DNA from: Branchiostoma floridae
Taxonomy: Eukaryota; Chordata; Leptocardii; Amphioxiformes; Branchiostomatidae
Direction of reading: 5' to 3'
NCBI RefSeq assembly: GCF_000003815.2
Contig: NC_049994.1
Span: 7,094,307 to 7,158,306 of the forward strand
Length of the DNA: 64,000 nt
Shown here piece by piece: positions 5,354-53,272 of the stretch. Both the position numbers and the translations under genes were made by a program. Position 1 is the stretch's first letter; the number at the start of each line of letters is the position of its first letter. The notes beneath the pieces were generated by a model, which ran no database searches, was not told the DNA's origin, and worked only from the letters and a program-made list of their open reading frames with translations.

Positions 5354-12391
<7,038 letters not shown>

Positions 12392-22518: not shown

Positions 22519-25500
22519 ATGAGTACCAAGAGCGATACCTCGCCAGGTGCGGAAGGAAACGACCCCCCGCCGACCCCGACAGTGAAAGAAAAGAAGACTT
22601 CGGTCCCCGCGTTCGATATAGGAAAGAAAACGTCCATCGGAGGCATGGATCCGGCAAAGAAACAAGTGACGGTCGCTGTCGACGGGAATAAGCCAAAGAA
22701 AACTGTGTCGAAGAAAAAGTCGGTCCCAGGAATGGTGAGCATGTTTTTGTTTATTTGTTTTGTTTAAACAGATAAACCACTTTTAGACATAATGTTCAGT
22801 TTAACACACCATTTTTGTACAGTGGGTAGTACTCTAGCTGCGCAAGCCCGAAGAGTAAGATTTGATCAACTCAAAGACCCCTCTCCTACTGTTTCAATAA
22901 GTGTGATTGGTTCTTTACTTAACGAACTTGAAATATGGCTACCCTCAAGTCAAATGTGGGATCTGGTAGTTGTACAGCTAATCTCCCATCCAAAACATAA
23001 CCCTTTCCAGTAGTGGGCTACTAGTAGTCAATTAAAAAAACTATACATTAGCCAGGACGTCACATTTTTAAACAACTACAGAGTCTTCAATGAATTGTAT
23101 TGATAACAATAGATGACAATGAGTATCAGGTCAATCAGCATTGTAATTATAATTAGCATTGTCTGGTATAATAGGTAAACGGCCTTTAGTTGTAACATGC
23201 CAGTTTTGTACATTAAGAACAAGCAGCAAATTACATTACTAGTAGACAGGATGGTGAGGTTTGATCCACTGACACTGGAATGGACCGCTACTCTTTGTAA
23301 GTGTGGTGGGTTCTTTAACATGCTTGAGGTTTGGCTCTACTCAAACACTGGACCTGTGGGTTTATGTCCCATTCGAAGAACTTGGGAAAGTCACTTTGCA
23401 CCTATTTTCTCACTAGACTTGAAAGGCAACTTACATGTAGCTTTGGTTCAGTCCTACGTCATGTTTCCAGACCAGGGCCTGGAGTGTTCACGGCGGTTTT
23501 GAGTTTGCAGTTTACTGTATGTTTGCGGTGGGTATGATTTGACGTTGAAGCGACCACAGCACACATAAACTACCACAAGCATTTCTGCGTTTACAGTAAT
23601 CGGTGAGGGGCAGCAGTCAAAATCGGCATATGAAAATGAAATACAACCACAATATAGCAGGACCTTACATAGAATCTCAGAGCTATGCATGTAACTGTAT
23701 GGCAACCTTGCCACAGTACGTGTTTTTAACCAAGCACACCAGGTCAATACTTTTTTTTGTACTTAAAAGTATGTTGGGTTCTTTTACGCATAAGGGTTTT
23801 GATGCTTGAGGCTTGGGCCTGAAGTTCCCTCATACTAGTCAGGGTTCTAGCCAGGATTTCAATTTAGCGTAGTGGGAATGGTATGGTAGCGAAGCGACCA
23901 ATCAGGAGATTGGTGTGGAAGGGGGGTCTTGGCCCCTCCGCGGTGAGATGTTGACAATGTAGAGTTAAAAGTTAAGTAATTTGAAGGATTTTTTGGTCAG
24001 TTTTGAATGGCATATCATCATATTTCATTGTTCAGACATTGATTAGACTTTATTGAACAAGCAAATGATAGCAAAGCACCACTACACTAGTGAAAAATTA
24101 GCGTAGTGGCCCATATTTTAGCGTAGTGGTCACAAATTTTAGCGTAGGGGCCCAATACGCCAAAATGCACTAGCTAGAACCCTGCTAGTGATAATCCTAC
24201 AGGCTTAACATCAATATCCAAAATCAGCGGTGGGGGGGGGGGGCATGGGGTGGCGGTTCGCGTAGGATTGAAGTCCGGCCAACAGATGATCCACAGAAAT
24301 AGCCAGATGGCCAAGCAGCGGGGTTTCGTTATCAGTTGCACCGCGGGACATATAATCATAAATTAGCATATACTATTGGACGAATTGGTTTATAACCATT
24401 GTAAAACTACATTGTGACTACTAAAAGAAATGAAATTTTCAAAAGTACTTTTTTTCTGTCATGTTGCAACATGTGATTCTAGACCCCAAGACAAACCTAA
24501 ACATCTGTAGCGCAGCAAAATTGCAAGGTCTGTGTATTTTTTTAGTTATGCACTAGTGTATAGTCGACTCATGCAACATTACCAAAATGGCAATATTACT
24601 ATTAGCGGACATGAGATAGAGAATTTAATTCCTGGCGTTCCTGTAGCTAGATGTTTTGCCCGTTGAAAAGGTACAACATTTACATGACTTCTTTTTCTAT
24701 GCCCTGGCATATAAAATGGGCACCTGACTTTCCAACAGTAAATGGGGAGGTAAAAGGTAAAAAGAGAGGGTTTGGCTCCACCTTCCAATACCAGATACAG
24801 TGGATAACAACCCACTACTCTAAAAAATACTATGGAACTTACCTTTTAAATCAAATTCAAGCAAGTATTTCATATGGAAGAAAGCTACACTTTCCAATAA
24901 CTAAATTCTTCAGTCATTTTTACGGCTTTTGATTTTTTTATGCAGTCGTAAATTCAGGTCAAAACTTTAAAACTTGTGTGAAGCATTCCACATAAGTGTG
25001 CCGCTCAAAAGTAGGTCAACCAAAATTCCCCACTTCAGACCAATATCCTTGATGATATGAAATTCTTTCCAAGCCGGACATACCAAGAATTCGTAAAAAA
25101 ATTTAAAATGGCATAATCTTCTAGATGCCAGGTATGATTTTAGTACAACATATATAGGTCCTTGGGGCTAGGCTATCCCATAAATCTTCAAATTTTTTGC
25201 GATGGCTTAAATGTTACCTCTCTACTGCGAATTTGTGACACTGCAAATACTGTCTTAGTTTTGTATTGTAGAATTGTTTATTGTAGAATTGTTTCAATTT
25301 TCGCAAACTAAAAACACAGCAAAAACTACTTTCTCCCTTTTGCGACAAATTACACTGTAAGTCGGCGCAAAAATAGATAGATTTACAGTTACTGTAGTGT
25401 TCTTCTGAGAATATGCCCCCCCCCCCCAAAAAAAGTACCTAGAAAATGTAACATGTATGCTTTACAGTAAGGCCATGTTGATTTGATTATATGGATGACA

Positions 25501-28500
25501 TCCTTAGGGAATCCCAAAACAGATGCGAGCATGCGAATAAAAATTGTAACGAAATTTGCCTTCCAAATCTAAGTCGTCAGGAAGGTTGAACAAATGACTG
25601 AGCACACAGTATGGTATACGGAACGATGGATTATTCTTTTTTTTGTTCTTTCACTTTTTCTTTGACTTTGGTAGCGCCAAAAGGTGTAAACCCCTGCCAA
25701 TATAATTTACGACTTTAGAATTCATTTTCCACATTTATTTTTGCACTTTTTGGCATTTGACTTGCTCAATTTTCTAGCTGCTTTGCACGATTTACACTTT
25801 ACGGTATTTCTAATTTAAAAAACTTTTGGTTTGGAAACGGATAAAAATTTATGTTATCTATAAAATTGAAGCAACATAGCCTAAGGTACAGATATAATAA
25901 GTCTGGGCTTACTACTTAATATACAAAAAAGGCAGAAATTCTCAGAAACATGTGTGTATATTCATAAGCATGCTGTTGCATATGGTGGGTGAGAGACAGT
26001 AAAGCCATGAAAAGTCCTTTGCAAATATGGTTTTGTGTCTTATGAAATTATCATGTCCAACTTCATATATGTATAAACAGTATATAGAAATGACATAATC
26101 ATTTGCCAATAAGGCTTCTAGCAGGGTTCTCCCCAGAATTTTTTAGTATAGTGGAGGGGCTGACAATAATAACCCGAACCAACGCGCTGCACTTTCATGA
26201 AAATGGGTTTGCATGACAGAGGGTGTCAAATACTACAAGTTCAAGTATATTGTAGTGATTCCATTGTGTTAAGTGGCAAAACGACTATTGTTTTGATCAT
26301 AGCCCATTCAAGTTTTTGCAGACAATGCCCACTGGAAAAGTGATGCCACTTGGCACAAAAATCTGTGGATTTTCATTAATTTTAGCCAAACTAACCAAGA
26401 AAATAGGGAAGAAACACACTAAATTTCAAAAGTAGCATAGTGGAGCTGGGCTAGGAGTATAGTGGAGGGCCTCCATTATTCCATCCTCTGCTTCTAGTAA
26501 TTGATAAATCTTAGAATTATTGTGTATTTTATGTTACTATGATAGTTCAATTTTTTTAACATATCAATAAACACTCTGTAATGGTAGTTTCTTTTTTTCC
26601 CAATCCTTTTTATTTTTGTTCAAAATTTGATCATTTGAACATTTTGATTTCAAATTATTTAGTATTGCCACAAGACAACATAAATTTATACATTTAATGT
26701 CTTTGTCATTCCAGAAATCAATTTGATTTTTATTTAAAAAGAGCTAGAAACGGAATGATCAGGTCTTCAAAGGGATTAAGAATTTAAGAATAGTATGATT
26801 ATACATAATTTTTTATATTATATTTATAAATTGTGTATACATGTTTTTATGCATACAATACAATTGATACCAATACATTTTAATGGCTTTTCCAGTAGAG
26901 GTGCATACTGGTATGTAGAAAATACAGGTACAGTCAAACCTGTCTATAGCGGCCACTCAAGGGACTGGAGAAATGTGGCTACTATAGACAGGTGGCCACT
27001 GTAGAGAAAATGTTGATCAATTGACCATGAGCAAGCTACACATGATTTCAGTTCCCACTAATCTTTCTCACCAAGTAACATTGTCTCGATCTGTAAATTC
27101 ACCAACAAAGACTTGCTCTTTATTGCTCAAGGCATGCATACCTTCTGCTACTGCCAAAATGATCCTGTCAGGAACTCCAAATCCTCGCAAACTACAATTT
27201 CAAACTCGGTGCAGGGTGACATAAGGCTGCAGTATGGTTGCAACAGGCAGTGTTTCTGTATCAACGGGACCGGAAGTCGTATGGCCTTGGCCGCGTTGGA
27301 CAGGTGGCCGCTAAGCCTATTTCTTAATCATTACGAATCCAAGGGACCGACAAGAAGTGGCCACTATGGCCAGGTGGCCGGTATGCAAATTAGGTGGCCG
27401 CCAATACAGGTTTGACTGTACAGGTACGGCCTTCGGGTCCAGAGCATCAGGTCTAGATCTGGACCTGAACCTGAACCTGATGTTAAAATTTGTGTCCTAT
27501 ACTCTGGGTGGTAGTGGCCGCAATAGACATGCCGTCATCTTTGAAATGTGTCTATGTTGAGGGACTGAAAATTTCGGGGTGGACTGAAAGTGGTCACCTT
27601 GAAACCAAGTTTGACTGCGGAAATTCGGTAGATATTGCTAAAAAAACTCTACTCTATTTCACCCTGTATTTTTATTCAACAGGTAAGTGCCAACATGTGT
27701 AAACCTCTGCCAATATAATCTAGTCATTTTCTAACTGGTCCAAAATCTGGTTTACTGATTTTTCTTTATCAGATCAGTTGTTTTTTTTACCAATCCAACA
27801 AGAAAAAAAAGTTTTACCAGTACAACTATTTCCCAACCGTTAAAAAAAGGATTATGTGTAGAAACAACTGTCTCTGTCAGACTTGTTTAATTGTTTAAAA
27901 AGGTAAGCAACAATGCCCAAAAGCTGACAGAAAAAAATAAAAAAAACAGACAGTTTCAGAATTAGTAGTTACTAGTTAGGCCTTTTTAATTTGATTATAT
28001 AGATGAGATCCTCTGGGAACCAGAAAACCCTCTCTCTCTCTCTCTCTGACCGGTTTAGCGTCCGTTCTTCCCTGTAGCAGGGGTTGGTGCAAGCATTTGA
28101 ATTAAATTGAAGAAATAGTTTGGGCAAAAAAAGAAACTTCATTATGAAATCTAAAACAGGTAATAAGATGTCAGGAAGTGGAATTAGTCAATTTCTTAAC
28201 CTTCCTGACCACTTAGATTTCATTAAGAAGGTATTTTTTTTTTCTTTCACCTAATTTTTCTTCAATTCCGGTCATGATCGTCAGTTTTTGAGTTTCCAGA
28301 GGATGTCATATCTATAATCATAAATAAACATGGCCCAAGGGTTACACAAGAGTCTATGGGAACCTCTGCAGATGTGGACATATACATGTAACTGTAAATA
28401 GTGTCCTACAAAGATAATTGTGACTCCAAGGCTAGTATGTATGTCTACAGTGACAAGCATGCCTCTACGGCCAAAGTAACCTAATTCGTAGGTTTTCAGA

Positions 28501-31500
28501 TAGGGCCATGTTGATTTGATTATATGGATGACATCAGGGTTGAACAAGTTTTCTAAAATCCACTTGTCCTATCGGGCAAGCACATAAAAAATGTACTTGC
28601 CCGAACCAATTTTTCACTTGCCCAAAATTCAAATGTCACTGTTACTAGTATATGTATTTTCACTTCCAGCAATGGAATTCTCTGTAGACAATTGCTAAAT
28701 ATGTCATGACTGTAAAAAGTAACAAGTATATCAAAATTGCACTAAAATCAATGGAAAAATCTTACTTGCCCAATATTGGACAAGTGGGGTAGGACATGCA
28801 CTTGCCCGAACAGCACTTTCACTTGCCCTGGACAATAGGGCTAGTGGACTTGTTTATCCCTGGACATTCCTCTGGGAACTAGCAAGTGTGAAAAAAAAAG
28901 TTTGGCACAGATGTTATAATCAACTTCATCACAATCATATTGTTATTCTTACACTGGTAATTGTAATCATGTTGTTGGAGGCATTGATATTAATGGTGGT
29001 ATTCATTTTTCCAAAAATATATACACTGACTGAACCAAAAGTGTACTATAAAAATAGACACATACATGGCATAAACATTGTGAATGTACGTCACTAGACA
29101 ATATTTCTTATTGCCTCCACCAAGAAGGCATTGTTGAACAAGTCTGTTTACCCTATTGTCCTGGACAACCCCAGGCAAATCAAAGTGCTGATTGGACAAG
29201 TATATCTTAAATATAATTTATTTGTCTATAAAGAAAAAGAAGAAGAATAGACGTCATAGACAGTTGCACTGTCGGCTGAGCTACATTGTACTTGTACCAG
29301 CAATGTTTTGATTGGCTGACGACGGAAGAAACAAAAAGAACACAGACCAGTATAGGCTAGTAAAAATAATGTTTTCCTTCAGAAACGTAATGAACTAGAA
29401 AGGCAACATTTTCGCAAAAATGCAGAATGTTTTCCCTCAAGCCTTGTGTAAAACAAAATATAACGATAGTTCACCTTTATCCATAGGGTAACCTTCGTCC
29501 GTTCTTTTTAAGAACAAAGTAATTATGGAAATCAAGTCGACAGATGGTGGTTTCAAACTGCAATATTTTGAAAATAGTACATTTTGAAACTACCGTCCAT
29601 CGACTTGATATCCCTAGATACCCTGTATAGTAACACAACGGATATAGGTTACCCCGTGGATAATGGTGAACTAACGTTACAACTGTCCATTAGACTCGCC
29701 CCGAAGTAGTGTGTGCGAGTGAAATGGGGGTATCTGAGTAGCCTGACGTGATAGCCAGTCCAGGTAGCCAGGCCTGGTTCACAGCCCAGCCTTTTCCGTA
29801 GACCTTTTCAACTGGGAGGAAGAAAAAAAACACACCAGGAAAAACAAAAACAATATGTCTCCTCCTTTGGGAAAACATAAGAACACTAAACCACCTGGCA
29901 AGGGAGCTCTATATACTGTAAATGCAGAAATGTTCGCGGTGGAGTAATGTTCGCGGTTTTCGTGGTGACCACTTTACCGCGAACTTAAAACCACCACGAA
30001 CATTTTTCTATTATGGTATTAGACTTCAGTCTGTGGTGTTACTGCGAACTTAAAACCACCACGAAAAGTCCTTTTTCCCGCTACCGCGAAATTAAATCCC
30101 CGCAAATTTGAATGCATTTACAGTATGTCTTGTATTTATTTTCTCTTTTGTTGATTTTTTTCTGCAGGATGTGACCAAAGAATTCAATCGCTGTAGAGAA
30201 GAAGGAGCCACCAGATTAGACCTTAGCAAGAAAGTTGTAAGTAAAATTACTTCCTTATATGATTATTATTTATGTCATACCATGGCCACGATTACGTTTG
30301 ATACGGATGTTCCGGACCAGGTGATAAATATAGAATACACCGTGCTGTATGGCGAAGACTTGTGCTGGAGGCTACCATAGTCCCCGACCCTCCTGATGAG
30401 GATGGGACTAGGTGAGGTGAGACTCATACCCACCTGAGAAAACACATGTTTCGATGCGGAATGTACCAGAAGTTGAGAAAATGTTGTCTTGTGTCCTGGA
30501 ACAAAAGATTGTAACAACAGCAATTCTAACGTCTGAATCGGGTATTCGTATTTTCAACCGTGCCGTATTCGGCCCGTTTGAAATAGTTTGATTTACTCAG
30601 AGGAAGCCTGTGTGATACAACTTAGAACCTGTGTGATACGGAAAGTTATCACACGGTCCGGAACTAGCCTGGGTACCATCCTATCTCTAGGATCTAGGAT
30701 GGTACTCAGGCTAGTCCGGAACACCTGTATCGAACGTTTTCGCGTCACAGGTATGACATAAATTTTAGGAAATAAAATAAATGACATGAATATCCTACCC
30801 GCGGTCGGGCTGGTACCTCGGGTGATACGGAATTCACGTTGTTCACAAAAACGAATTTGATAGCCTGCGATTTTCTCTTTTGTTTCATTTTTGTGTTTCA
30901 CATCTCATTTTCCATCGCTGCAGGTTGACGCCATCTTGACTATCCTGCTTAACTTTGTCCCTTTGGCCAGTTGGATAAGATATCTAATGATCAACAACAG
31001 GGTTGTAGCCAGCCTGAAATCATTTTCCGTCCCCTTGATTTTGAATCCTATCGAGCGCCCAAGGCACGACTTTCCTAGGGGGGTCCTGGAGCATGCTCTG
31101 CCAGGAAATTTTGAAATCTAGACCCTCTGAAATGCTATTTCCTGCATTTTGAGGTGTAGATTTTGCTGATAGACTAAGCTGTTCAATGGCATCTGTTTTG
31201 GTGAAAGATTACACAAGGGAGACAGTTTTTTTTATATCTTAACATATTGATTTTTGTCCGTCAGGGGACGGAATGGGCAAATTTTTTTTCTGTCCCCAGC
31301 TGCACAATTCCGTCAAAGGACGGAAGGACGGGTGCTGGCTACAACCCTGATCAACAATATTCAGCTCTTCTTCAAAACATTGGATGTTTGCTTATTTTTT
31401 TTTTTTAAGTTTCTGTATTTCCCTTTCTCCACAGATATCAGTACTACCGCCTTCCGTGAAGGAACTAACCCAGCTAGTAGAATTCTACCTGTACGGGAAC

Positions 31501-34500
31501 CGGTTACAAAGTCTACCGCCGGAGATCGGACATCTAGTCAACCTACAGACCCTCGCTCTGAGCGAGAACTCCCTCACAACCCTTCCAGACCAGCTAGTAA
31601 ACCTGAAGAAGTTGAAGGTGCTAGACCTCAGACATAACAAGTTGAAAGAGGTGAGTGAAAATGGATTCTCCTGTTCCTCTCGATTACATGAAACTCTTAC
31701 TGTACGTGTACGTTTTCCTAATATATAGGTTAATTCTTGAAATTAGGGTTCTACCCATGGCCAGCATCTGTCCTTGCAGGAATTTTGCAGCTGGGGACAG
31801 CCCAAAATTTGCCAATTCTGTCCTCTGTGATGGACAAAATCGGCAATAAGATATTAATTGAACCAAACTGAGTCTGCCCACAACATCTGCCCCTAAAAAT
31901 AAAGGAAACAGCATTTCAGGGGGGTCTAGATTTCAAAATTTCTTGGGGGAGCATGTCCCTGGACCCCTTTGAATTGTTGCGCCTTCAACAGGATTTCCTT
32001 TAAAAATCCGGGGACGAAAAATTTTAGGCACATTGATATTGTTATTGAGTGGGCCAGCTACTCTCTCTTGGAGACGGGCGGAATTGCGAGGATCGCAAGG
32101 GTGCATCTGCCATTCGGCGCTAACTCAGACGACCTCAATGCGACAGCAATAAGAATTATTGCTGCAAGGTTTGGCCAAATGACTTTAGGGAAGGCCTAGG
32201 ACCCCTACTCTTTCTGATAAGTGGTGGTTTCTTTGACATGCTACAGGTGTGGCTCTCCTCAACCATGGTAACTCCATTTTTAACGTCCTATCTGAGGGAC
32301 ATAACTGAATATAACTAAATGTATAACTAAACCTAGGTACTCATTTTCACCTCAGTGAAGTGAGGAAAGTTGTGCAAGGTGCCTTTCCCCAGGGCACAAG
32401 ATTGGTAACACATCAACAGATTTGAATGTAGAATCTCTGGATTTGCGGGTTACGTTTAGGTAAAGCTTGTGGGTAACTTACTTTGACTTCTACTTTGCAG
32501 CCCGATTGTCAAATAAAAGAATAATACATTTTCGAGCCACAAAGCAAAAAGAATTACATAGTTTTTTTTTTACAGAATTGGACCAGCCTTGAATATATGC
32601 AGTCATGTGACTTCATCTAATCTAAAAAATTTTTTTTTTTCCATCAGATCCCAGATGTGGTATACAGGCTGACTTCGCTGCAGACCCTTTTCCTAAGGTT
32701 CAATAGGATCACAGTTGTCGGGGACGACCTGCAAAGATTAACGGTAAGGAAATATGACGGTCTGTTTGTTTTGCTTTTTGAGTGAACCACTTTATTTTAC
32801 AAGTGGAGGTTCATGGAGACATAGCAACAATATCAGTATGTTTGGGAAAGTTTAGACATCCAGGTTAACAATATTCAAAGATAAGATACAGAGATTATTT
32901 CCAGACATTTCGAGTGACATCCATCACTCTTCATCAGCAAGGCTAGAATGAATGACTTGCTCTGCCAGTTCAGTCAAGTAGTGCTGAAGAAGATAGATGG
33001 ATGTCACTCGAAATGTCTCCAAATAATCACTGAATCCCATCTAATTACAGATATTGATTTGTCTTTTAGAAATATACAGTTAAGTTAGCCACATAGCCTT
33101 TTTTGATGCTGTCCGAGCAGTGGGTTATCCATTGTGTTTAACACACAATATTGTAAAACAGAGTCTATCCCTCTCCTTCCACCACCTTTTACCTCCCCAA
33201 CTGAAGTTTATCACCTGGCTGGAATGAGGAATGTTGCATGATCTAAGTGCAACATCTGTCCAGAAATGCCAGGAATGAAACTCAAGACCTCTTGATCTGG
33301 CCTTTGCTAGCCTAGCCACTTAGTTGGCCATTCAATGTTAGATTGTTAGAACTTACATGTAAATATATAGAGATTTGATTGACAATTTTTCCAGCTTTTT
33401 GTGTTAGATCTATTACATTGTACTTGCTAACTGGCGTCTTACCTGCTCCTTTCCCCAGAAATTGACCATGCTTAGCTTGAGAGAGAACAAAATCCGAGAG
33501 CTTCCCGGGGGGATCGGCCAGCTGGTCAACCTGATCAACCTGGACGTCTCGCACAATCACCTGGAGCACCTGCCTGCAGGTGCACCTGTTTGTTTGTTTG
33601 TTTATTTGTTTTTGTTTGTTTTCTTTAATAAGGAGAAACAAAGTTCACTTTTCGATTGAAAACTCATCTGTGTTGGTAGAATACATAGCTACGGATTTGA
33701 GCTTTGTTCCAACACAATAGATGAACTCGCCTTAAATTTTTGGTTGACCTCGCCGACCTTTGTCAGATGTCAGATACGCTACGCTGACATTCCGACACTC
33801 ATAAGTGAGTTGACGTCAGAAGCAAATGGTAGCGAATTTCACTTTTCTTTTCCAAAAATAAACAAATTGTATTGTTCGTTTCAAATGAAAGCAGAAACAC
33901 ATTTGCTTTTTTACTTAGTTTTAGCCTGGGTACCATCTGGGTAGTAGTTTGCTCTTGTGATCGCTTACACTACCCAGTTGGGACCAATCAGTGCCCTTGG
34001 ACAAGAATTGAATATTCCAGGCATTATAGATGTCAAAAGTTCCCAGACGGAATAGCAGAAAAGTGACTGTATATGGTGTATAATAAGTATTCAAATGAGC
34101 CACTAACAGAGAAGTTACTATAGGGTGTATAATAAACGTTTGAGCAAGCTACTATCCTAAATAATTTTGCTGTCCCCACAAAAATTAAGGAATGTCTTCC
34201 TTTTTTGCTCTCATTTGAATACAGAAATTGGGAACTGTGTACAGATGTCATCACTAGACCTCCAACACAACGAGCTTCTGGATCTACCAGAGACCATAGG
34301 CAACCTCAAGTTACTCAGTAGACTAGGACTAAGGTAAGGAATGAAAATCGAAAAGTGATAACTGAATAGTTTTGTTTAAGATCTTTCCATGACTTGTACT
34401 AGTGACATCAAAGCTAGTTTTCTTACATAACATTCATATAGGGTACTTCAGTCTACATATATGAACTGTGGCATTTTCCTGCAGTTTTGCTATCTGGTGC

Positions 34501-34656
34501 TAGATGGCCTTCATGAGTAGTGTTCCAGTCTGCAGCGCCACCTGTTGGTGTGGTTGTGAACTGCAGATGAAATACAACCTGTCATAACTAAATACATAAA
34601 AATAGGAAAATCTTGTAAGTTTTGAGTACATTGAAGAGGTAAGTCATCATGTGTGT

Positions 34657-34707
<51 letters not shown>

Positions 34708-37700
34708 CGTGTACATAAACCCACTCACACACACCTACATAAATGCATCTGGGTAATGTTGTTTGCAGGTGTTCATAATGTCTCATGATGTTCTTTTGTT
34801 TTTTTTCCAGGTACAACCGGTTGGCCTCAGTACCCAAGTCCTTGAGCAACTGTACAGAGATGGAAGAGTTTAATGCAGAGGGAAACAACCTGTCATCGCT
34901 ACCGGTAAAACGTCTTTTCTCTTCAACAAAAGCTTTTCCAATAATATTGAACATACACTTCCCCTATTGCAATGTAGACAGATTCTGCCAGGCGGCACTG
35001 TTGTATGGATCATATTCATGACTTTCTTTGAATTGCATGTAGCTTCATATGTACCTATTTCTATTAGGTCAATGTTGAATCTTGTAAAGTTGAATTGTCT
35101 TGTTGTTGTTGACGAATGTTTTTGTTGTTGTTAACAGGAGGGGTTGTTGTCCAGCCTTGTCAACATGTCCAGTCTGACCCTCGCTAGGAACAACTTCAGC
35201 TCATATCCCATTGGTGGACCAGCCCAGTTTGCCACTGTCTATGTGAGTCCAGCACTACTTATTTTATTATACCTCACTGACTCGACCTTGTTCAGGGAGA
35301 GTACCATATGCAGTATTCCTGGGAATCGCTAGATGGTGCACACATACAAAGAAAAGAAAAGAAAAGCATGATGGGACCTCACGTGATGACGCCCCTTCCC
35401 AATCATCATTTCCTTTGTGCTTCGCGCAAGGTGCACGCATCGAGTTTGCTCCGGTACGATCCGGTAGTGACTCAGTTTTTCGTTGTTGGCTACGAGAAGA
35501 ACCACTTTCGGCGCACCATGCCGCCGATAGGGTAAGCCCCTATCGGCCGGCTACTATCGTCGCAGCAGGCCGTAAGACCGGGAAGGGTGAAAAGCCCCTA
35601 TCGGCGGGCTACTATCGGTACTGGCGGTCGAGCTTAGCGCTCAAGGCTTGCCAGGCGCTGGGAAGGACCAAAAGGCCCTTTCGGCGCAACATGCACGGGA
35701 AGAATTGGCCAAGCATGCCGTAGAACCTGGAGGTTATCGGCGAGGCTACGTATACAGACGGCCGTCATACCTTGTGCCTTACACGGAGCTGGCATTATCG
35801 GCGCACCAGGCCGAAAAACCTGGAGGATAGCGCAGCCACAGACGGCCGCTATGGCCATGGTGCCCGAGGTTGAGGCACTGGCCCTTTCGGTGCAGCAGGC
35901 ACGGAGAATTGAGGTAATACCCCACGTTCTTTGCGCCAGGTGACGCTAAAGATTCGAGAACGGTGGAAGACTGTTCTCGTGGCTCCATCCATATTCAGAA
36001 GGAGCGGCAGCCGCCGTGCCACGTGGGCCGATCGGGGTAATCGACATCTCAATGGAACTGTAAGTAGATTACGGGCTCCGGTCGCTCCGTTATGGTTGCT
36101 CGGATAAGCTTCCATGTTGAACACGCTGTTAGGCATGTTGCCGTTGCATTCTACGCTCGTCTAGGAGGAGCGTCCAGCAGTTTTCCCCATAATTTAAAGT
36201 CGCTTTATGAGCGGTTGACTTAGGAAAGACGTCAATCGGCACAGAAAGGGGCCTCCCCTTCTTCTTCTGCTGACTATGATACGTCGCAGTTGTCTGACAA
36301 GAGAAGCTCCAGGTGAATAAAATATTGGGAGCTTATGTTAAAGCTTGTCCCTGAGGGAAGCTTTTTTATGGCAATAAAGTTATCAATTACTTAGCCATAC
36401 TAGAAATGTGTGTCCGTAATTAGCATTATCACGGAGAATGCTCCACAAAGACAATTGACGAAATTGAATTCGTCTGGGACGTTGTGTGACTAGTCACGCG
36501 CGTAGTTATTACACATGTATGTTCAACGTCTGGCTCTTTGTTGTTACTTTAGACAACAAGATTTAACATGATTCATGTTGACGAGTCTAACATGTTTTTG
36601 GTAGTCTTGATAGAATATTGTTCTTTACGAGGAACACGTGTCCTTTCTAATAAACCATTGTTATGCAAACAATGCAAACATTGCGAATGTTGTCGGCAAA
36701 TGGTCGACGGTATTCCTCCGAACTCCGCTCACCCAGGATTGACCGTCCCGGGTGTGGTTGCGGAGCATTCTTATGATTCTACTTCTTCCTGGTAATTATG
36801 TTCCAGAAGATGGGAAGAAGGAGCTCTGTGTGCTTCACGGAACTTCAGGTAACATTATTGTGTTTACCTACTTACTACGGTAAAAACGATTGTTTACCTT
36901 TTTGCTGTTCGGTACGGCCTTATCACAAGAGCCGACAATGGAGTTTTGTTGTGTTCATTATAGTGCAAACAGACAATATAGTCTGAACATGGCGGACACT
37001 TGTCAGTTATACACTGTTTAGCCTTGCGTCCACATCGCTCGGCTTGAAAGTATCCTCATCATTCTTAGCAAAATTGTTGGTGTTTGACACCGGAACGTTG
37101 TCTTCTTCCTGTTGTTTTAGGATGAAGAAAATATTAACCACGTTCTTTAACTGGTTGATGAACTATTATATGCCGACCATCTGAGCATTTGTATACAGTT
37201 GCTCGTCTTGGCTCGCCACGTGCTCGTCCTGGACTGGCGGGGATTCCCAGTCACCAGAGCAGGGGCTATTGAGGTAGCCAATCAGGTAAACTTATCCTTG
37301 ATCCAATCAAGGACACTACCGTTCGAATATTGTAGACGTTCAACACCTCGTATGCAGGTGTGAAACCTGTTATTCTTGCCAGTAGACTTACGGTCCTAGT
37401 TACCGAATCCACAAGCACTTAGTCGGATGTTTATAAATACTGATGGCTAATGTTGTATCAGAAGTGCGATTCTTGTTTAAATCGCTAGAGGACCCCATTA
37501 AAGGGTCAAAAGGTCATTGGTAACTTTTTGGCCGCCATTATTTACGTTCCAGGCTCAGCTATATAGACCTGTTTTTACACGTTATACGTTATCGGGAACA
37601 TCACATTGGTTGAATCCGACTGAAGTCCATTATCAGCGTAACGTTCGGTGGTGTCATGGGTTTTAAAAGCAACCCGCCTTTTATCTTGTCGGCATGAACG

Positions 37701-40700
37701 CCCCCCGATGTTCCATTCATAATTTTCGGGAAATCGGTGGCGCTGTTTTTGAGGAGGGGCCTCGAGCACGCAATTCAGCCGCCTTACATTAACTTAGCTA
37801 CCTTTCTGGCTGCTAATTTTACACCAGTAGTTACTTGGTTACGTGTACAGCGGTAATCTGAAGTCAAGGGGCAAAACGCCTTGGCTACATGTACCATCAT
37901 GAACGGTGAACTTCAAGTTTCGGAACACTTGTTCTGAATTGGCGCCGCTGCCCGAGCTTGATACGTCTCCACAACTATCGCTAATATGGTTGAGTTGTGT
38001 GGAGAAATTGTGCAGACAATTTTGCTTACAATTACATTATGTTTTGTACATGTTTTGTGGCTTATTATTAGCGTTAAGCTACTGCTGGCGCTTCTATGGA
38101 CGGAAAAAGTCCGTCGCCCTTCTTCTTCACATGGTGTTGAAGTAGCGCAATATGTGTTCCTTTTAAGTTCACAGGTAACTTACAACAGAGTTGTAGAACA
38201 TGTTACACATAACCATGATCAAAACTGATCATGACAGACATTGCAGAGAAGATCAATTTAATTATCTTGTGCAGTCTTTGCACACAGACTAACGTGTGGT
38301 GTGATCAATATGATGAGATATGTGATCAATATGATGAGACATGTGATGTGATCAATATGATGAGACATGTGATGTGATCAATATGATGAGACGTGATGTG
38401 ATCAATATGATGAGGCATATGATGTGATCAATATGATGAGACATATGATGTGATCAATATGACGAGATATGTGAGGTGATCAATATGATGAGCCATATGA
38501 TGGGATTAATACGATGAAACTTGTGATGTTTTTCGTATTATGTCAACCCTTAATACACCAGATGATTATTATTATAGTCTTGCTGGTGTCTGCAACATGA
38601 CGAAGGCCCACAATGTACCTTGTCCTTCAGTGCTACTCTTGATGTCAGTTGATATTGACATATTGCAAGTACTTCTTGCTATTAATGTTTCTTAGTGAAA
38701 TATACAAGTTCACACGTTAAGGGTGGAACTGTACTCATGTGTGAGTGTAAAAAGTTCACTGTGGAATTAGGTGTTGGGGAACAATGCAAGTTACCAGACA
38801 CCTTTCTGAACGTCACTATCCCGAGCTTCCGGTAGGTGATTGGTGACAAGTGAGCCATGCAATTTAGGCTCACAAGGCTGGCTTCTGGCAGCCTGCAATC
38901 CACTTGACTGGAAACATTAAAATGTGGTGTTGAGTTACCAAAATTGGTACTCACTTCGATTGTATTTGTAAAGATTGCCTTTACCACAGATGAGGCTCCT
39001 ACTTGTTACAAGTTCAGTATGTTTGTTACACACGTTATGGGGATTCCGGAGGAATCTAACACAGTTGACTTCATGTTTTGCATGAACCACACCAATTCAA
39101 ATGTATTATTGGTATGTTGGTACTCTTTGGTTTATTTAGAGCCACAGTTAGCTTGAATTTCAGCTATTGTTTCCTGTGGTCGATAGATGGCTTGGGCGCT
39201 CTTATATTAGCCCAGTCGTTCAACACATGCATGCTATACATTGCCTTACCTTACATACATTGTACCCGTTACAATTGTTGTGCAATAAACATTGATTTGT
39301 TTTATTGTTATAGGCTGTTCTTTCACGAGGATCAGCCACTTAATCTAATGGGTTTCTCCCCTCTATGAAGGGAAACAAGAGGTTTGTGTTTTTCTCCTCA
39401 AAGGTCACTTGAGGATGTCTCCTTCCCCTTGGGAAAGGGGGGGGGGGGGGGTAAGTTGACGGGACTGGACAATGTGTACCAAGTCCTAAGGATTAATGCT
39501 TTTTCAGTGTTTGTTCATCAGGCACTCAGTGTTATCTAACAGTTATACTGGTAGGACATTAGGTCACGAGAACTGACCTTCTTAGACTATAACTGATACT
39601 TCAGTTGATACCTGTGCTGTCCAGATACAGCTTTGGAGTCTGCATATGGTACTCTCCCTGAACAAGGTCGAGTCAGTGAGGTATAATTGGGGGTTATGCT
39701 AAGATGTACTTACCATCTACAGTATAATCTGAATTATACCTCATACGAGACCTTGTTCAGGTATATCTTCCCACCCTCAGTAACTTATGTTCAGCTGCAG
39801 GGATTTAGTGAACATTGCCCACCCATGGACAGCACAGACTTATTTATCTACTCTCGCACTCAGTCAATGATGATTGGGAAGGGGCGTCATCACGTGAGGT
39901 CCCATCATGCTTTTCTTTTCTTTTCTTTGTATGTGTGCACCATCTAGCGATTCCCAGGAATACTGCATATGGTACTCTCCCTGAACAAGGTCTCGTATGA
40001 GGTATAATTCAGATTATACTGTAGATGGTAAGTACATCTTAGCATAACCCCCAATTATCTTACACACAATATCAATATCTTTTACTTGTAGACAAAAAGA
40101 AAAGATAGATAACTGTATTCTGGAAAAAATGTGTCAGGTAAGTCTATAAGACTTAGTGAGGATTTGACTAGGAAGTTGGATATCACTCGTGTACACATAC
40201 ATTTGTAAATACAGGCACAGACACACACAAACACAAACATGAAGATGCAAAACTATTACACAATATTGCAGAACAAAGCAAACTAGACTTTATATACAAA
40301 TGAATACACACAAAAATACACATCTGTAAAATCTGTATGTACAATTATTATATTGTATTGATAAAGGTTGTGAGTTGTAAGAAGGAAATTTCAAAATTGA
40401 AGAAAATGATTTACACATTGTACTTTTGAATGGTATTCTGTAAAAGTTTCAGAATTAGAGAATGAGATTATTTCTGGTAACATACATGTAGGTTTCTTTA
40501 TACCAAAGGTAAAGAATATTTTGTTAATTTCTTCTTGATTATACTAATTTTTGTATTTTCTAACAGTCGATCAACATGGAGCATAACCACATCAACAAGA
40601 TTCCGTTTGGCATCTTCTCTCGTGCCAAGTACCTGACCAAGCTGAACATGAAGGACAACCAGCTTACATCCCTGCCTCTAGGTAAGGCACAGCTTACATC

Positions 40701-42583
40701 CCTGCCTCTAGGTAAGGCACAGCTCACATCCCTGCCTCTAGGTAAGACACAGCTCACATCCCTGCCTCTAGGTAAGGCACAGCTCACATCCCTGCCTCTA
40801 GGTAAGGCACAGCTCACATCCCTGCCTCTAGGTAAGGCACAGCTCACATCCCTGCCTCTAGGTAAGGCACAGCTCACATCCCTGCCTCTAGGTAAGGCAT
40901 CTGCACATGACATACCAGGCATTGTGTGGCGCAATTGGTAAGGTGTTTGACCCAGACCCCAGATGAAATGGGTTCAAGTGGAATTAGCCTGGATTTTGAG
41001 TGGAAAGCCTTTTGAAGTTGCAATGTTGCAAAGGTGTCCTGGGTCTCCTTGGAAAATTTTAAATCAGATTCTTAATCCTCTGAAGCACTATTTCCTGCAT
41101 TTTGAGGGGCAAGCTTTGCAGGTAACGTAAGGTTATATTTTATTATAATGGTTTATTTGGCAAGCATGTCATACGAATCGCAGCCTTGCGGCTGAATTGA
41201 GGTAATGGCATTACATTCAGCACAGTTATCACTTCATACAATATAAACGATACAATTCCTAGCACATTAAGATAAGAAGCAAGGTTTAAAATATCTATAA
41301 ATGAATTACGCGATTAAAAACTAATATTGCACATTCAATTAATCGTGATTATCAAGGTTACCAGTTAATGGTCGAATTATGGAAAATGATTATTGTTATT
41401 AAATGCCTGGGCAGATTCAAATATTTAACCCATTTGAAGAAACAGTAGTTTGTCTGCTAAAAAAGTGCATGGTAATTTATTTCTTCCCTTCATCTTTGGC
41501 TGCGCACCAGCATGTAATAATGGAGTAGTTGGCAGTGAATAATTGTTCTAGGGTGACCAATTAACGGTCACTTGAGTATTTCTCCTTGTAGTGCTCTACC
41601 TACAAGCACACATATTCAAACACTTGCTGCAAAATATTACGAAAGTGGTAAACAAACAAACCACAGTAAAATTTTTGTGTATTACCCCACCATCGCCTGC
41701 AGTAGTGCCATAGTGATGAATGAAGTTGGACCGCCGAATTTGGCTCAGTAGAACATCACGTAAAGTCGACCCGGACACCACAATCTTCCATGAAAATTGT
41801 GCAATATTCATTGCAAGGGTTTTCAATGTGAATAACACATTTATAGTTTTATTATTATTGACTAATTTTTGCATGGTGCACCTTGAAATGCAGTCATGTT
41901 GCTAACTGACCGTTAATTGGTCCTGCACGTAAACTGGTACCTTACGTTAGACTCAGCTTGGTTTAACTAATATCTTTAGTTTACATGACAATTTTTGTCC
42001 GTCACAGAGGACGGAATGGCCAACATTTTTGTCCGTCCCCAGTTTCAAAATTCCGTCAAAGGACACTAGGACGGTCGCTGGCTAGAACCCTGCTTCAAAC
42101 TGTACTATGTTACAATTTGAAACTACCATATGTCGACTTGATTTCCATAAATACTCTCTTTCAAAAACAATGAACATACATATAGGTTGCCTTCAGATAA
42201 ATTTGAACTACATGTAGCATCACACATAATGAACATAACTACTAATGGTAGTTCACCTTTATCCGCATGATAACCTATATCCATTGTTTTAAAAAACCCG
42301 AATATTTAGGGATGTCTAGTCGACGGATGTTGGTTTCAAATTGCAATATTTTCATAGCGACTTGACATCCCTAAATACTCTGATTTTGTATACAACAGAG
42401 AAAGGTTACCCTGCGGATAAAGGTGAACTATCGTTACATAATGAACGTCTCTCTACAGATGTGGGGACGTGGGAGAACATGGTGGAACTGAACCTGGGCA
42501 CCAACCAGCTGCAGAAGCTGCCTGAAGACATTCAACATCTCACCAACCTGGAGACACTCATCCTCTCCAACAACCTGCTCAAG
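22519..42583 (+). CDS. SHOC2: SHOC2 leucine-rich repeat scaffold, 5' ten coding exons
   Basis: Exons: 22519-22734, 30168-30236, 31435-31650, 32648-32743, 33459-33579, 34225-34333, 34811-34904, 35138-35242, 40567-40681 and 42459-42583; all junctions are in phase (422 aa). SHOC2 joins MRAS-GTP and PP1C in a phosphatase complex that removes the inhibitory phosphate of RAF kinases. The disordered Lys-rich N-terminus begins MST (human MSS); a VPAF stretch near residue 30 sits where human SHOC2 has its GVAF PP1C-docking motif. Then comes [19 protein letters not shown] and about 14 LRRs, e.g. [74 protein letters not shown] and [18 protein letters not shown], each matching human SHOC2 in order. Human SHOC2 is 582 aa; the last ~160 aa (final LRRs) are not found downstream, where a 10-kb insertion and a gap occur. 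Intron 1 is 7.4 kb and intron 8 is 5.3 kb, both filled with mobile elements. Confidence 0.96.
23840..24184. mobile_element. hAT-like MITE, CAGGGTTCTAG termini
   Basis: Starts CAGGGTTCTAGCCAGG and ends GCTAGAACCCTG (inverted). CTAGT is repeated on both flanks (23835-23839 and 24185-24189). The interior contains several GCGTAGTGG motifs. It lies in SHOC2 intron 1. Confidence 0.7.
26122..26489. mobile_element. Probable hAT-like element, 8-bp target duplication
   Basis: GCTTCTAG flanks both sides (26114-26121 and 26490-26497). The left end reads CAGGGTTCTCCCC; the right end matches poorly, so this is a weaker call. The interior repeats the GTATAGTGGAGG motif. Confidence 0.5.
26931..27418. mobile_element. 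hAT-like MITE with perfect 8-bp target duplication
   Basis: The 488-bp element starts CAGTCAAACCTGTCTATAGC and ends with the inverted form, GCCAATACAGGTTTGACTG. TACAGGTA is duplicated at 26923-26930 and 27419-27426. CAG termini and an 8-bp duplication are typical of the hAT superfamily. It has no transposase. It is inserted within another repeat (CAGGTACGGCC...CTGGACCTGAACC). Confidence 0.9.
28535..28862. mobile_element. hAT-like MITE, CAGGGTTGAACAAGT termini
   Basis: The left end CAGGGTTGAACAAGT and right end ACTTGTTTATCCCTG are imperfect inverted copies. GACAT flanks both sides. The empty-site sequence (GATGACATCC...) is visible in a related repeat at about 25495. The interior repeats ACTTGCCC. 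Confidence 0.75.
29461..29679. mobile_element. MITE, TAACGATAGTTCACC family, copy 1
   Basis: The termini TAACGATAGTTCACCTTTAT and (inverted) TAACGTTAGTTCACCATTAT bound a 219-bp element in SHOC2 intron 1. A second copy is at 42243-42436 and a half copy lies near 42100-42215. Confidence 0.85.
29914..30125. mobile_element. MITE, TACTGTAAATGC family, copy 1
   Basis: TACTGTAAATGC at the left, GCATTTACAGTA at the right; interior rich in TTCGCGGT and ACCGCGAA motifs in both orientations. It ends 42 nt before SHOC2 exon 2 and so contributes the region upstream of that acceptor. Copy 2 is at 62017-62229. Confidence 0.9.
30280..30865 (-). repeat. Dispersed element related to 57975-58330
   Basis: Read on the minus strand, it shares with 57975-58330 blocks such as GACGCGAAAACGTTCGATAC, GTGTTCCGGAC, CCGTATCACCCGAGGTACC and TTTTCTCAGGTGGGTATGA. 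It is interrupted by a 50-bp hairpin insertion at 30665. No protein is visible, so it is probably a non-autonomous DNA element. Confidence 0.7.
30665..30714. mobile_element. 50-bp hairpin insertion with 8-bp target duplication
   Basis: The arms TAGCCTGGGTACCATCCTA and TAGGATGGTACTCAGGCTA form a hairpin flanked by TCCGGAAC on both sides (30657-30664 and 30715-30722). The uninterrupted site (GTTCCGGACCGG) is seen at 58008. Related arms begin at about 17089 and 33924. Confidence 0.85.
30998..31349. mobile_element. hAT-like MITE with 8-bp target duplication
   Basis: Termini CAGGGTTGTAGCCAGC and GCTGGCTACAACCCTG are perfect inverted copies. ATCAACAA is duplicated at 30990-30997 and 31350-31357. 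It ends 85 nt before SHOC2 exon 3. Related fragments containing a GTCCGTC...GGACGGAATGG block are near 42000 and 31750. Confidence 0.93.
34651..34706. repeat. (GT)n microsatellite in SHOC2 intron 6
   Basis: Nearly pure GT dinucleotide tract. Confidence 0.97.
35266..39687. mobile_element. 4.4-kb inverted-repeat-bounded element in SHOC2 intron 8
   Basis: Bounded by perfect 48-bp inverted repeats (35266-35313 and 39640-39687) starting ATTATACCTCACTGACTCGA. The interior at 35430-36180 is GC-rich, with degenerate in-frame units reading LSAQHA, LSAHQA and LSVQQA and donor-like GTAAGC or GTAATA sites, followed by short splice-bounded open segments (for example about 36223-36312 and 37200-37287). 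No reverse transcriptase, recombinase or transposase was recognised. No target duplication was found at these ends. It could be a decayed multi-exon transposon. Confidence 0.6.
38297..38530. repeat. ~26-bp minisatellite (TGATCAATATGATGAGAC core)
   Basis: About nine imperfect head-to-tail units of GATGTGATCAATATGATGAG, inside the 4.4-kb element. Confidence 0.93.
39687..40057. repeat. Foldback unit with ~80-bp arms
   Basis: 39687-39766 is repeated inverted at about 39970-40057 (ATAATTGGGGGTTATGCTAA ... GACCTTGTTCAG). The interior segment 39868-39990 is an inverted copy of 35290-35407 (CATGATGGGACCTCACGTGA block), so it belongs to the same family as the neighbouring 4.4-kb element. Confidence 0.8.
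40660..40899 (+). repeat. 30-bp minisatellite spanning SHOC2 exon 9 5' splice site, 8 units
   Basis: Eight units start at 40660, 40690, 40720 and so on to 40870. Each consists of CAGCTCACATCCCTGCCTCT plus AGGTAAGGCA, so each carries the end of exon 9 and a strong donor TAG|GTAAGG. Donors begin at 40682, 40712, 40742, 40772, 40802, 40832, 40862 and 40892. The 30-bp period keeps the reading frame ([10 protein letters not shown] per unit). Confidence 0.98.
40918..40985 (+). repeat. Weak tRNA-like (SINE-type) fragment
   Basis: GTGTGGCGCAATTGGTAAGG resembles an A box region, and GGGTTCAAGTGG, about 35 nt on, a B box. No cloverleaf can be drawn. Similar weak signals lie at 9150-9220 and 46637-46690. 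Confidence 0.35.
41354..41948. mobile_element. Non-autonomous transposon A, intact copy (~0.6 kb)
   Basis: Left end AAGGTTACCAGTTAATGG; right end (inverted) AACGTAAGGTACCAGTTTAC. It lies in SHOC2 intron 9. It is the intact reference for the copy split by the 10-kb insertion (43172-43259 plus 53273-53778). Confidence 0.8.
42243..42436. mobile_element. MITE, TAACGATAGTTCACC family, copy 2
   Basis: Left TAATGGTAGTTCACCTTTAT; right GATAAAGGTGAACTATCGTTA (inverted match). It ends only 22 nt before SHOC2 exon 10, so the acceptor tract directly abuts the element. Confidence 0.88.
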
Positions 42584-43022
42584 GTCAGGCATGGGGGAGG
42601 GGGGCAGAGGTTTACTCACTGTTACTATATAGTTTATGAACAAAGAAGGTCACTCTGAGGGGAGGGGGGATCCAGCATCGCACCCACCTGGAGACACTCA
42701 TCCTGTCCAACAACCTGCTCAAGGTTAGACATGGGGGAGGGGGACAGAGGTTTACTCACTGTTACTATATAGTTTATGAACAAAGAAGGTCACCCGAGGG
42801 GAGGGGGGCAGAAGTGGTTTCATCGTTGCTATATAGTTTATGAACAAAGAAGGTTACTCTGACAGGAGGGGGGGATCCAACATCTTACCAACCTGGAGAC
42901 ACTCATCCTCTTCAACAACCTGCTCAAGATCACGCATAGGGGAGGGGGGCAGAGGTTTTCTCACTGTTGGTAATGAATATGGTTCATGAACAAGAAGTTC
43001 ATTCTGAGGGGAGGGGGGCAGA
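42541..43022 (+). repeat. Tandem partial duplications of SHOC2 exon 10 edge and intron 10
   Basis: The exon 10 end (ACCTGGAGACACTCATCCT to CTGCTCAAG) recurs at about 42689-42723 and 42891-42929 together with the following G-rich intron. The copy-2 donor is AAG|GTTAGA; in copy 3 the GT is changed (AAGATCACG). Intron-only segments recur additionally. Confidence 0.93.
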
Positions 43023-43259: not shown

Positions 43260-43429
43260 AATAATAAAGAAGCTCCATCTTAAGATTGGAATTCCGTTTT
43301 TCCCATTTTGAAATGTGCTAATATTTTCAATATAAAAGCACTTGGTGCAAAGTCTTTACATATGATTGACAAGTATGATGCACAGTTGTGAAATATGATA
43401 ATAACTTTCATGAATATTCATTTTGAAAA

Positions 43430-43609
43430 TTTTCTTCCTGCAGGAATTCCTGCAGGAATTCCTGCAGGAAGCGTTTTTCCTGCAGGAATTCCTGCAGGAA
43501 GCATTTTTCCTGCAGGAATGCTGCAGGCATTCCTGCAGAAATTCCTGCAGGAGAAAGGTAAATTCCTGCAGGAAGAATGTTTCCTGCAGGAATTTCTGCA
43601 GGAATGGCC
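43430..43609. repeat. TTCCTGCAGGAA palindrome array (left TIR)
   Basis: About ten copies of the 12-bp self-complementary TTCCTGCAGGAA, with variants, sit in head-to-tail or spaced order. The same array recurs at 44858-45037 and, inverted, at 52925-53102. Leu/Gln/Glu- or Pro/Ala/Gly-type open frames across it are artefacts. Confidence 0.97.
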
Positions 43610-44694
43610 TTATAATTCATATCTAAATCAATGACACTAAGATAGGAGTGCTACACACCGGCAAAAAAGTATGCAACAAACGTTTTAGTAGTAGTTTCTC
43701 CTATTCATGCAACTTTTTCAACATATACATTTACATTTTGTACTACAGTTAAATGTAGAGTATAATCACACCCCGCGCAACATTTCTACCCCCAGTTCAA
43801 CCTGTATGACCTCACAAGCGCCATGTTCTTGTTGACTGTCGACGCATCAAAAGCCAGCCAATTTCTCAACAGTTATCATATATAATATCAATGTCACTAA
43901 ATCCTTCAAAATTATGAGGTAGTCTGGCAACATTTTGGAAGCACGACGTGTGCCCGACTCGGGGTGGTCGTGGTCGCAAGTTTGAGTTTAATCCGATTAA
44001 ATGTGAACGCATTTTTTTAATCCAACAGAAAGCTTTAATCGGATTCCTCATTTAACTCACTTGTATTTTTTCATTTGAATGGGGTCCAAGTTGCCCATGA
44101 CATGTTCAACAGTTGTGCCGACAGAGCCATTACGGCTGTTCACACATGGGTGTTTTCATCAAATGAAAACTGCTCTATTCGAATGCTCCTTCCATGCATG
44201 CAATGATATCTTGTAAATGCAGTACCAAGTTGAACGTGGCAAAGAATGAAAGCTCCTTGGTCAGCAACTTGAGATTTGTTTGATCTGGTTGGTCATATTT
44301 TGACCATCATAAGATTAACACTTGAATGTTTGTTCCAGAGAATATTTCATAAAGTTTAAAATTGGGCCTAAGAAAGCCAGGGGCTTGCTTCCTCTTGTTG
44401 AAAATTCAAGTAAGTATGCGCTATTGTAATGCGGGTTCAAAGTAAGGTCAGCTATTGTTCTATAGATATGCAAAGGATGCTGGTGTCCAATTATCAATTA
44501 TCAAAGGACTAATTATTCCCCAGGTCCAAACATCCTGGCTACCTGTAGTGCTGAGGACCTAAGGCCTTCAGAAAGAATCCTGGAACTTGGGGGTACACTA
44601 TTACAAGAAATTACAGACTGAAGAATTACAGAATTTCAGAAACCTAAGTTCACTTTTACATTAATCTATTTAAATATGAAATGGTAAACCAAAN

Positions 44695-46121
44695 AAGAAG
44701 CTCCATCTTAAGATTGGAATTCCGTTTTTCCCATTTTGAAATGTGCTAATATTTTCAATATAAAAGCACTTGGTGCAAAGTCTTTACATATGATTGACAA
44801 GTATGATGCACAGTTGTGAAATATGATAATAACTTTCATGAATATTCATTTTGAAAATTTTCTTCCTGCAGGAATTCCTGCAGGAATTCCTGCAGGAAGC
44901 GTTTTTCCTGCAGGAATTCCTGCAGGAAGCATTTTTCCTGCAGGAATGCTGCAGGCATTCCTGCAGAAATTCCTGCAGGAGAAAGGTAAATTCCTGCAGG
45001 AAGAATGTTTCCTGCAGGAATTTCTGCAGGAATGGCCTTATAATTCATATCTAAATCAATGACACTAAGATAGGAGTGCTACACACCGGCAAAAAAGTAT
45101 GCAACAAACGTTTTAGTAGTAGTTTCTCCTATTCATGCAACTTTTTCAACATATACATTTACATTTTGTACTACAGTTAAATGTAGAGTATAATCACACC
45201 CCGCGCAACATTTCTACCCCCAGTTCAACCTGTATGACCTCACAAGCGCCATGTTCTTGTTGACTGTCGACGCATCAAAAGCCAGCCAATTTCTCAACAG
45301 TTATCATATATAATATCAATGTCACTAAATCCTTCAAAATTATGAGGTAGTCTGGCAACATTTTGGAAGCACGACGTGTGCCCGACTCGGGGTGGTCGTG
45401 GTCGCAAGTTTGAGTTTAATCCGATTAAATGTGAACGCATTTTTTTAATCCAACAGAAAGCTTTAATCGGATTCCTCATTTAACTCACTTGTATTTTTTC
45501 ATTTGAATGGGGTCCAAGTTGCCCATGACATGTTCAACAGTTGTGCCGACAGAGCCATTACGGCTGTTCACACATGGGTGTTTTCATCAAATGAAAACTG
45601 CTCTATTCGAATGCTCCTTCCATGCATGCAATGATATCTTGTAAATGCAGTACCAAGTTGAACGTGGCAAAGAATGAAAGCTCCTTGGTCAGCAACTTGA
45701 GATTTGTTTGATCTGGTTGGTCATATTTTGACCATCATAAGATTAACACTTGAATGTTTGTTCCAGAGAATATTTCATAAAGTTTAAAATTGGGCCTAAG
45801 AAAGCCAGGGGCTTGCTTCCTCTTGTTGAAAATTCAAGTAAGTATGCGCTATTGTAATGCGGGTTCAAAGTAAGGTCAGCTATTGTTCTATAGATATGCA
45901 AAGGATGCTGGTGTCCAATTATCAATTATCAAAGGACTAATTATTCCCCAGGTCCAAACATCCTGGCTACCTGTAGTGCTGAGGACCTAAGGCCTTCAGA
46001 AAGAATCCTGGAACTTGGGGGTACACTATTACAAGAAATTACAGACTGAAGAATTACAGAATTTCAGAAACCTAAGTTCACTTTTACATTAATCTATTTA
46101 AATATGAAATGGTTAAACCTA
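44695..46121. repeat. Exact 1,428-bp repeat of 43267-44693, joined at an N
   Basis: The base at 44694 is N, and the sequence then restarts precisely at the TIR terminus (AAGAAGCTCC). The two copies carry identical open frames at a constant 1,428-bp offset. The last ~15 nt before the N lack single T bases present in the second copy (GGTAAACC versus GGTTAAACC), as at a low-quality read end. This is likely an assembly duplication; a true tandem copy is possible. Confidence 0.85.
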
Positions 46122-52408: not shown

Positions 52409-53272
52409 CTTATGGACTCCAATGATTATCCTATTAGGGCACCCTACCCTTACAGTACATGTGCAATTTACAATAATTGAATTTATACTTTTAAGGGAAG
52501 CTTAGGCCTGTCATGAAATTTATGAATTTTGTGTTTATGTTCCTGACTTGCACCTACATGTACAATCAAATTGGCTTAGATACTAATAAACCCTAAGTGG
52601 TGATGTTAAAGAATTAAAGAAAAAAATGAAAGAAGTAACCATGCCCAAGCTTCTGTACTTCTGAAAAATATGAGTAGCCACTGAAGGAAATGCATTTTCT
52701 TGAAGTGAAGTTCATTCATAGGTCAGTTATTTCTAATGCCAGGCATCTCCAGCAACAGTCAATAAAACTAGGAAAACAAAACAATAAAAAATGCCTCCAT
52801 TATATATCTGTTTTATATACATAGTTAAAGTCAAGTCTGAAACATCTAATGAAATCTAATGCATTGTTTAACAGTTTCAAAACAAAATTAAATGCATAAA
52901 GAATGCTTCCTGTCATTGTCAAGGCCATTCCTGCAGAAATTCCTGCAGGAAACATTCTTCCTGCAGGAATTTACCTTTCTCCTGCAGGAATTTCTGCAGG
53001 AATGCCTGCAGCATTCCTGCAGGAAAAACGCTTCCTGCAGGAATTCCTGCAGGAAAAACGCTTCCTGCAGGAATTCCTGCAGGAATTCCTGCAGGAAGAA
53101 AATTTTCAAAATGAATATTCATGAAAGTTATTATCATATTTCACAACTGTGCATCATACTTGTCAATCATATGTAAAGACTTTGCACCAAGTGCTTTTAT
53201 ATTGAAAATATTAGCACATTTCAAAATGGGAAAAACGGAATTCCAATCTTAAGATGGAGCTTCTTAATAATA

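Follow-up and report, generated by a model that had tools for sequence, protein, structure and literature searches.

How a gene copes with eight almost equivalent 5' splice sites set one after another across a single exon/intron boundary, and whether it makes any use of them, is the question raised by a minisatellite in the lancelet Branchiostoma floridae. The array crosses the boundary between coding exon 9 and intron 9 of a gene whose protein matches identify it as SHOC2. We analyzed the 64,000-nucleotide stretch of DNA around it (C16:7094307-7158306, hereafter the window) and searched the genome of 513,431,437 bases in 431 contigs, in which C16 spans 19.2 Mb and C1, the source of the comparison arrays described below, 35.3 Mb.

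The gene model consists of ten coding exons (Table 1); the numbering covers coding exons, exon 9 being the ninth of these. A phmmer search with the 350-residue product of exons 2 to 10 recovered PDB chains named SHOC-2, which we take to be human, with e-values of 4.9e-177 to 1.8e-176 over residues 2-350. On the strength of this match to the predicted product the host gene is SHOC2. Splicing from the first donor of the array gives the sequence TSLPL-D at the place matching the PDB SHOC-2 chains, and given this agreement we take donor 1 to be the ancestral site.

Table 1. Coordinates of the SHOC2 gene model and of its two boundary arrays, numbered from the first base of the window
Feature	Position	Strand	Basis or remark
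Minisatellite, 8 x 30 bp, across the exon 9/intron 9 boundary	40660..40899	+	TRF, pattern search
Eight in-phase donors	40682..40893	+	scores from human matrices
Donor GTs	40682, 40712, 40742, 40772, 40802, 40832, 40862, 40892	+	GT of donor k = 40682 + 30(k-1)
SHOC2 coding exons 1-10, 422 codons, all joins in frame	22519..42583	+	gene model
SHOC2 coding exon 9 with donor 1	40567..40681; acceptor AG ends at 40566, GT at 40682	+	model, translation, SHOC-2 match
SHOC2 coding exon 10	42459..42583	+	model; joined to donor 1 reads L-D-V-G-T-W
Second array, exon 10 tail and its donor, three copies	42530..43013	+	spacing 140 and 205 bp

In the window TRF delineated 8.0 copies with a period of 30 and 98% matches, and a search with the unit pattern recovered 8 matches, compared with 0 on average over 100 shuffled sequences, bearing out the eight tandem units that a first-pass annotation of this DNA had placed across the boundary. 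Each unit joins 22 nt of exon end to 8 nt of intron start. The first 27 bases of the unit gave 8 matches at up to 2 mismatches, all of them within the SHOC2 array, as opposed to 0 for the reversed control, and a second copy of the array was thus not encountered anywhere in the genome at this level of divergence. The donor sequence TAG/GTAAGG is found in 7 of the 8 units and unit 3 has TAG/GTAAGA; apart from this A for G and one further position, occupied by T in units 1-2 and by C in units 3-8, the units are identical. Such near-identity fits a recent homogenization of the array.

When donor k is spliced to the start of exon 10 at 42459, the reading frame is open and continuous for every k from 1 to 8, with 10(k-1) residues added. 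These translations uphold the earlier claim that all donors leave the same phase, and the 10-residue peptide that it gave for the insertion was also correct; the added peptide differs after unit 3 from that following the other units. Since the frame stays open at any donor, growth or shrinkage of the array would be buffered at the level of the protein. Similarly, the frame is kept when units are removed from a longer product, whichever of the 28 pairs of units is joined. Retention of the intron leads to a stop at 40939. It should be noted that a unit length divisible by 3 has a one-in-three chance of arising.

Donor and acceptor strengths were computed with human splice-site matrices, applied here to a lancelet gene. 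By this measure the array junctions score 5.72 as donors (4.72 for unit 3), and the exon 9 donor ranks third among the 10 SHOC2 donors; the site that the first-pass annotation had called strong is good rather than exceptional. The same AG/GT junctions score 4.97 as acceptors on the corresponding human matrix, above 4 of the 9 SHOC2 acceptors. Every unit ends in CATCCCTGCCTCTAG followed directly by GTAAG, with a pyrimidine-rich stretch before the junction. The window has 269 AGGT sites on the plus strand; if the two scores of the array itself serve as thresholds, 8 of these sites reach both, all of them in the array, and no minus-strand site does. When both thresholds are loosened to 3, the sites that pass outside the array number 9 on the plus strand and 3 on the minus strand. 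The pyrimidine tract probably follows from the codons for the residues SLPL of a leucine-rich repeat, and given this origin the dual character of the junctions is probably accidental. Leucine-rich-repeat codons may tend more generally toward pyrimidine tracts ahead of AG/GT. The donor of SHOC2 exon 5, at 33579 (CCTGCCTGCAG followed by GTGCAC), scores 4.83 as an acceptor too.

Donors 2 and 4-8 share the local sequence of donor 1, so the sequence of the site itself gives no reason for donor 1 to win. We considered RNA or DNA structure as a cause of donor choice or repeat growth and rejected it, given that folding was no better than that of shuffled sequences: z-scores were 0.25 to 0.45 for single units (n=3), 0.13 and 0.53 for exon-plus-array stretches (n=2), -0.12 for the array as RNA and 0.80 for the array as DNA.

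The window holds 22 tandem-repeat loci covering 4.1% of its length (a merge of 43 TRF rows, with some short-unit repeats excluded and some kept). Two of the 10 SHOC2 donors lie inside arrays, for which both circular shifts and random placement gave P = 0.061, while at least one donor in an array has P = 0.34 by circular shift in the window; the notion that the placement is improbable by itself is accordingly not supported within the window. The second of these donors is that of exon 10, where the exon tail and donor are present in three copies. Compared with the first copy, copy 2 is 90% and copy 3 is 73% identical, and their donors read GTTAGA (42724) and ATCACG (42929, lacking the GT) as against GTCAGG (42584) in the first; on the same human matrix copy 2 scores 2.1 compared with 3.7 for the first. 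This exon 10 array resembles an older version, now in decay, of the one at exon 9.

Genome-wide, we counted three copies of a donor word separated by gaps of 10 to 40 nt, with the same word read backwards as the control. AGGTAAG gave 1198 (689 + 509) matches against 220 (104 + 116) for the reversed word, a 5.4-fold excess, and AGGTGAG gave 1653 (925 + 728) against 94 (49 + 45), a 17.6-fold excess; these numbers are matches and not arrays, with long arrays counted repeatedly, and the repeat counts are lower bounds. Among the matches listed, C1 held 20 AGGTAAG clusters versus 3 control clusters (entered by hand), an excess with P = 0.0002, 0.005, 0.026 and 0.14 at base-rate ratios of 1, 1.5, 2 and 3, respectively. 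The first 1.47 Mb of C1 contained 8 AGGTGAG and 6 AGGTAAG clusters. As for the base rate, the single words exceeded their reversed forms by 10 to 6 and 9 to 5 on both strands of the window minus the array, which are small numbers, and many of the listed matches of the control word GAATGGA sit in ATGG-type simple repeats. The large triple-donor excess may thus be due to splicing or to the word itself. Extrapolation from C1 suggests that there may be hundreds of tandem-donor arrays in this one genome, and no genome-wide account of such arrays in lancelets was found among the matches listed from the open-licence literature.

The 30 C1 loci that we fetched represent 8 distinct arrays, 7 of which were examined. 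A protein match confirms the position at a 5' boundary for 2 of the 7: L012 lies after an exon of a dynein heavy chain (AAA_8 in Pfam, 1.8e-10), and the exon ahead of L009 matches dynein heavy chains in the PDB (best e-value 2.1e-06; no Pfam match). Two more are likely boundary arrays, namely L016 on the opposite strand, which resembles a 3' boundary and whose hand-translated sequence matches Pfam MT of dynein at 0.0011, below the cut-off, and L026, where an open frame with no Pfam or PDB match runs into the donor. The remaining three (L019, which resembles a coding repeat, L022 and L024) have no boundary assignment. We also observed a further array in L009 (495-863), likewise situated after an open frame; and L009, L012 and L016 bring several boundary arrays together with dynein heavy-chain exons within ~25 kb (C1 about 221-246 kb). 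Three comparison arrays have donors scoring 6.9 to 9.0, better than those of the SHOC2 array, but poor acceptors, ranging from -4.5 to 0.2 (about -0.4, -2.3 and -4.3), and in view of these three arrays a dual-site score is not general to boundary arrays. Their spacings are 43, 37 to 98 and 32 to 232, and in 2 of the 3 these are mostly not multiples of 3 (46, 37 and 50 in L012; 43 in L026).

Tandem repeats across exon/intron boundaries have been described from amphioxus as "mirages", a name coined for Adh3 and later extended to globins (PMC3087553), and boundary repeats are also reported from TnC and PGBD5 (PMC3902484). The SHOC2 array resembles those of Adh3, BflGb6, BflGb9, TnC and PGBD5 in lying over such a boundary, and its 30-bp unit falls in the range of 10-160 bp reported for mirages, in which later units often carry AG/GT (PMC3087553). 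As in mirages, where the authentic junction sits in one unit and splice signals are present in the rest, donor 1 gives the SHOC-2-like join and units 2-8 carry AG/GTAAG. The array differs from these mirages in that its unit is a multiple of 3, is open through all eight copies and has junctions that also score as acceptors. A search of the lancelet literature found no paper joining SHOC2 and a minisatellite among the matches listed, one of which mentions lancelet and SHOC2 once each. Beyond what the first-pass annotation had noted, the units are acceptor-like, the donor of exon 10 is present in triplicate, and this kind of array is already known and, by pattern counts, frequent in this genome.

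Human genes offer further parallels. In IFI6 (6-16) a minisatellite is reported to provide multiple splice donors (Turri 1995, as cited in PMC4526556); like it, SHOC2 has tandem, in-phase donors in an exon-end minisatellite with open products. The genes and sequences are unrelated, however, and the downstream donors of IFI6 are reportedly used, whereas those of SHOC2 are candidates. Tandem dual-specific splice sites reported to be active as both ends occur in UBC and VCX3A (PMC10809524). With UBC, whose unit is 228 nt, the SHOC2 array shares a unit length that is a multiple of 3 and an AGGT scoring as both 5' and 3' site, and VCX3A has 8 repeats as the SHOC2 array does; yet each unit of UBC is an entire protein domain within the coding exon, whereas in SHOC2 a position in the intron is predicted for units 2-8, and their dual sites are candidates. 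Boundary repeats of human segmental duplications, with units averaging 30 bp, are reported to alter splicing and may form introns (PMC2812944); they came to light through comparison of paralogues that differ in them, and they have transcript support.

We consider it probable that the array is a neutral, young and homogenized mirage of the lancelet type with donor 1 in main use. A 30-bp segment holding the exon 9/intron 9 junction would have undergone tandem duplication to yield the minisatellite, and with donor 1 as the presumed main site in vivo, units 2 to 8 would normally leave with the intron. Each unit, with its pyrimidine-rich CATCCCTGCCTCTAG and following GTAAGG, is also a candidate dual-specific site, and units entering the message via a later donor could in principle be removed whole, as reported for UBC. 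The first-pass annotation had left a choice between a neutral decoy and a tunable source of isoforms; the decoy half of that alternative is the better supported, given that the Adh3 and globin mirages are reported to leave regular splicing undisturbed (PMC3087553). By analogy with the BflGb6 mirage, which has 6 and 3 units in two haplotypes, and with the Adh3 array, described as somatically unstable (same source), polymorphism of the SHOC2 copy number is plausible. More tentatively, as a possibility to which we give limited weight, minisatellites seeded at 5' splice sites could constitute a very large lancelet class preferred by the duplication process itself, for example through breakage during transcription or through template switching where exon and intron meet; the SHOC2 array would then be a rare in-phase, dual-specific member whose repeat growth is invisible in the protein, and a live intermediate of intron birth. 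The readings weighed here and below are not mutually exclusive, and their likelihoods are to be understood in that sense.

That the array generates functional isoforms, with several donors used appreciably and perhaps under regulation, is in our view unlikely. All eight products being open and in frame would allow it: SHOC2 would gain 10 to 70 residues at the point that corresponds to the junction of human residues ~396 and ~397, and IFI6 provides a precedent (cited in PMC4526556). The undisturbed splicing reported for the Adh3 and globin mirages (PMC3087553) speaks against it. In 2 of the 3 comparison arrays most spacings are not divisible by 3, a further indication that such arrays are not generally built for isoforms. 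Leucine-rich repeats have a period of about 23 residues, which a step of 10 does not match. Equally doubtful is an array of dual-specific sites in which introns between two units are spliced, leaving a stochastic number of units and marking an intermediate in intron birth. The eight AGGT sites that stand out of 269 at the array's own scores, the unit length and the precedents of UBC and VCX3A (PMC10809524) favor this; against it, the support comes from matrix scores, and the poor acceptors of the three comparison arrays imply that dual specificity is not a property of the class. The inner introns would measure 30 to 210 nt and have their branch point ~15 nt upstream, which is short by usual standards.

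Misassembly as the source of the array or of its copy number is very improbable, even though the downstream side of the locus gives cause for caution. A stretch of 1419 bp (43267-44685) recurs exactly at 44695-46113, right after a single N at 44694, probably an artefact of assembly or haplotype merging, and an assembly gap begins at 53779. A tblastn search of the window with the human C-terminus as the query did not recover the C-terminal part of SHOC2 (human residues from ~440): besides the exons already modelled and one copy within the second array, it yielded short hits with e-values of at least 1.6. Together these observations mean that the 3' side of the SHOC2 locus is not reliable. However, the exon 9 array, at 240 bp, is short enough to fit one Sanger read, and the published assembly was reportedly built from Sanger reads merged to one haplotype, in 19 chromosomes (PMC7269912); its units also differ at ordered positions (T, T, then C onward, and the A in unit 3). 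Elsewhere in the window we noted alpha-tubulin exons on the minus strand (6574-12040; Pfam Tubulin and Tubulin_C), weak major-facilitator family matches at 54.7-56.3 kb, all below curated cut-offs, and palindromic TTCCTGCAGGAA arrays detected by TRF at 43435-43552, 44863-44980 and 52980-53097, the first two within the duplicated block. Rfam searches of the window gave 0 matches at the gathering score, and no tRNA was found in it.

Within 210 nt the SHOC2 array offers eight near-equal donors, of which seven have the same nine scored bases. With strength constant and position varying, it represents a natural experiment on how the spliceosome chooses between equal sites, a subject on which a search of the open-licence literature gave no paper for identical donors. 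The dual-specific form bears on the birth of introns from tandem duplication. If hundreds of such arrays exist, first-donor, last-donor and exon-definition models would be testable on existing RNA-seq, and the tandem-donor arrays across this one lancelet genome are the more interesting lead.
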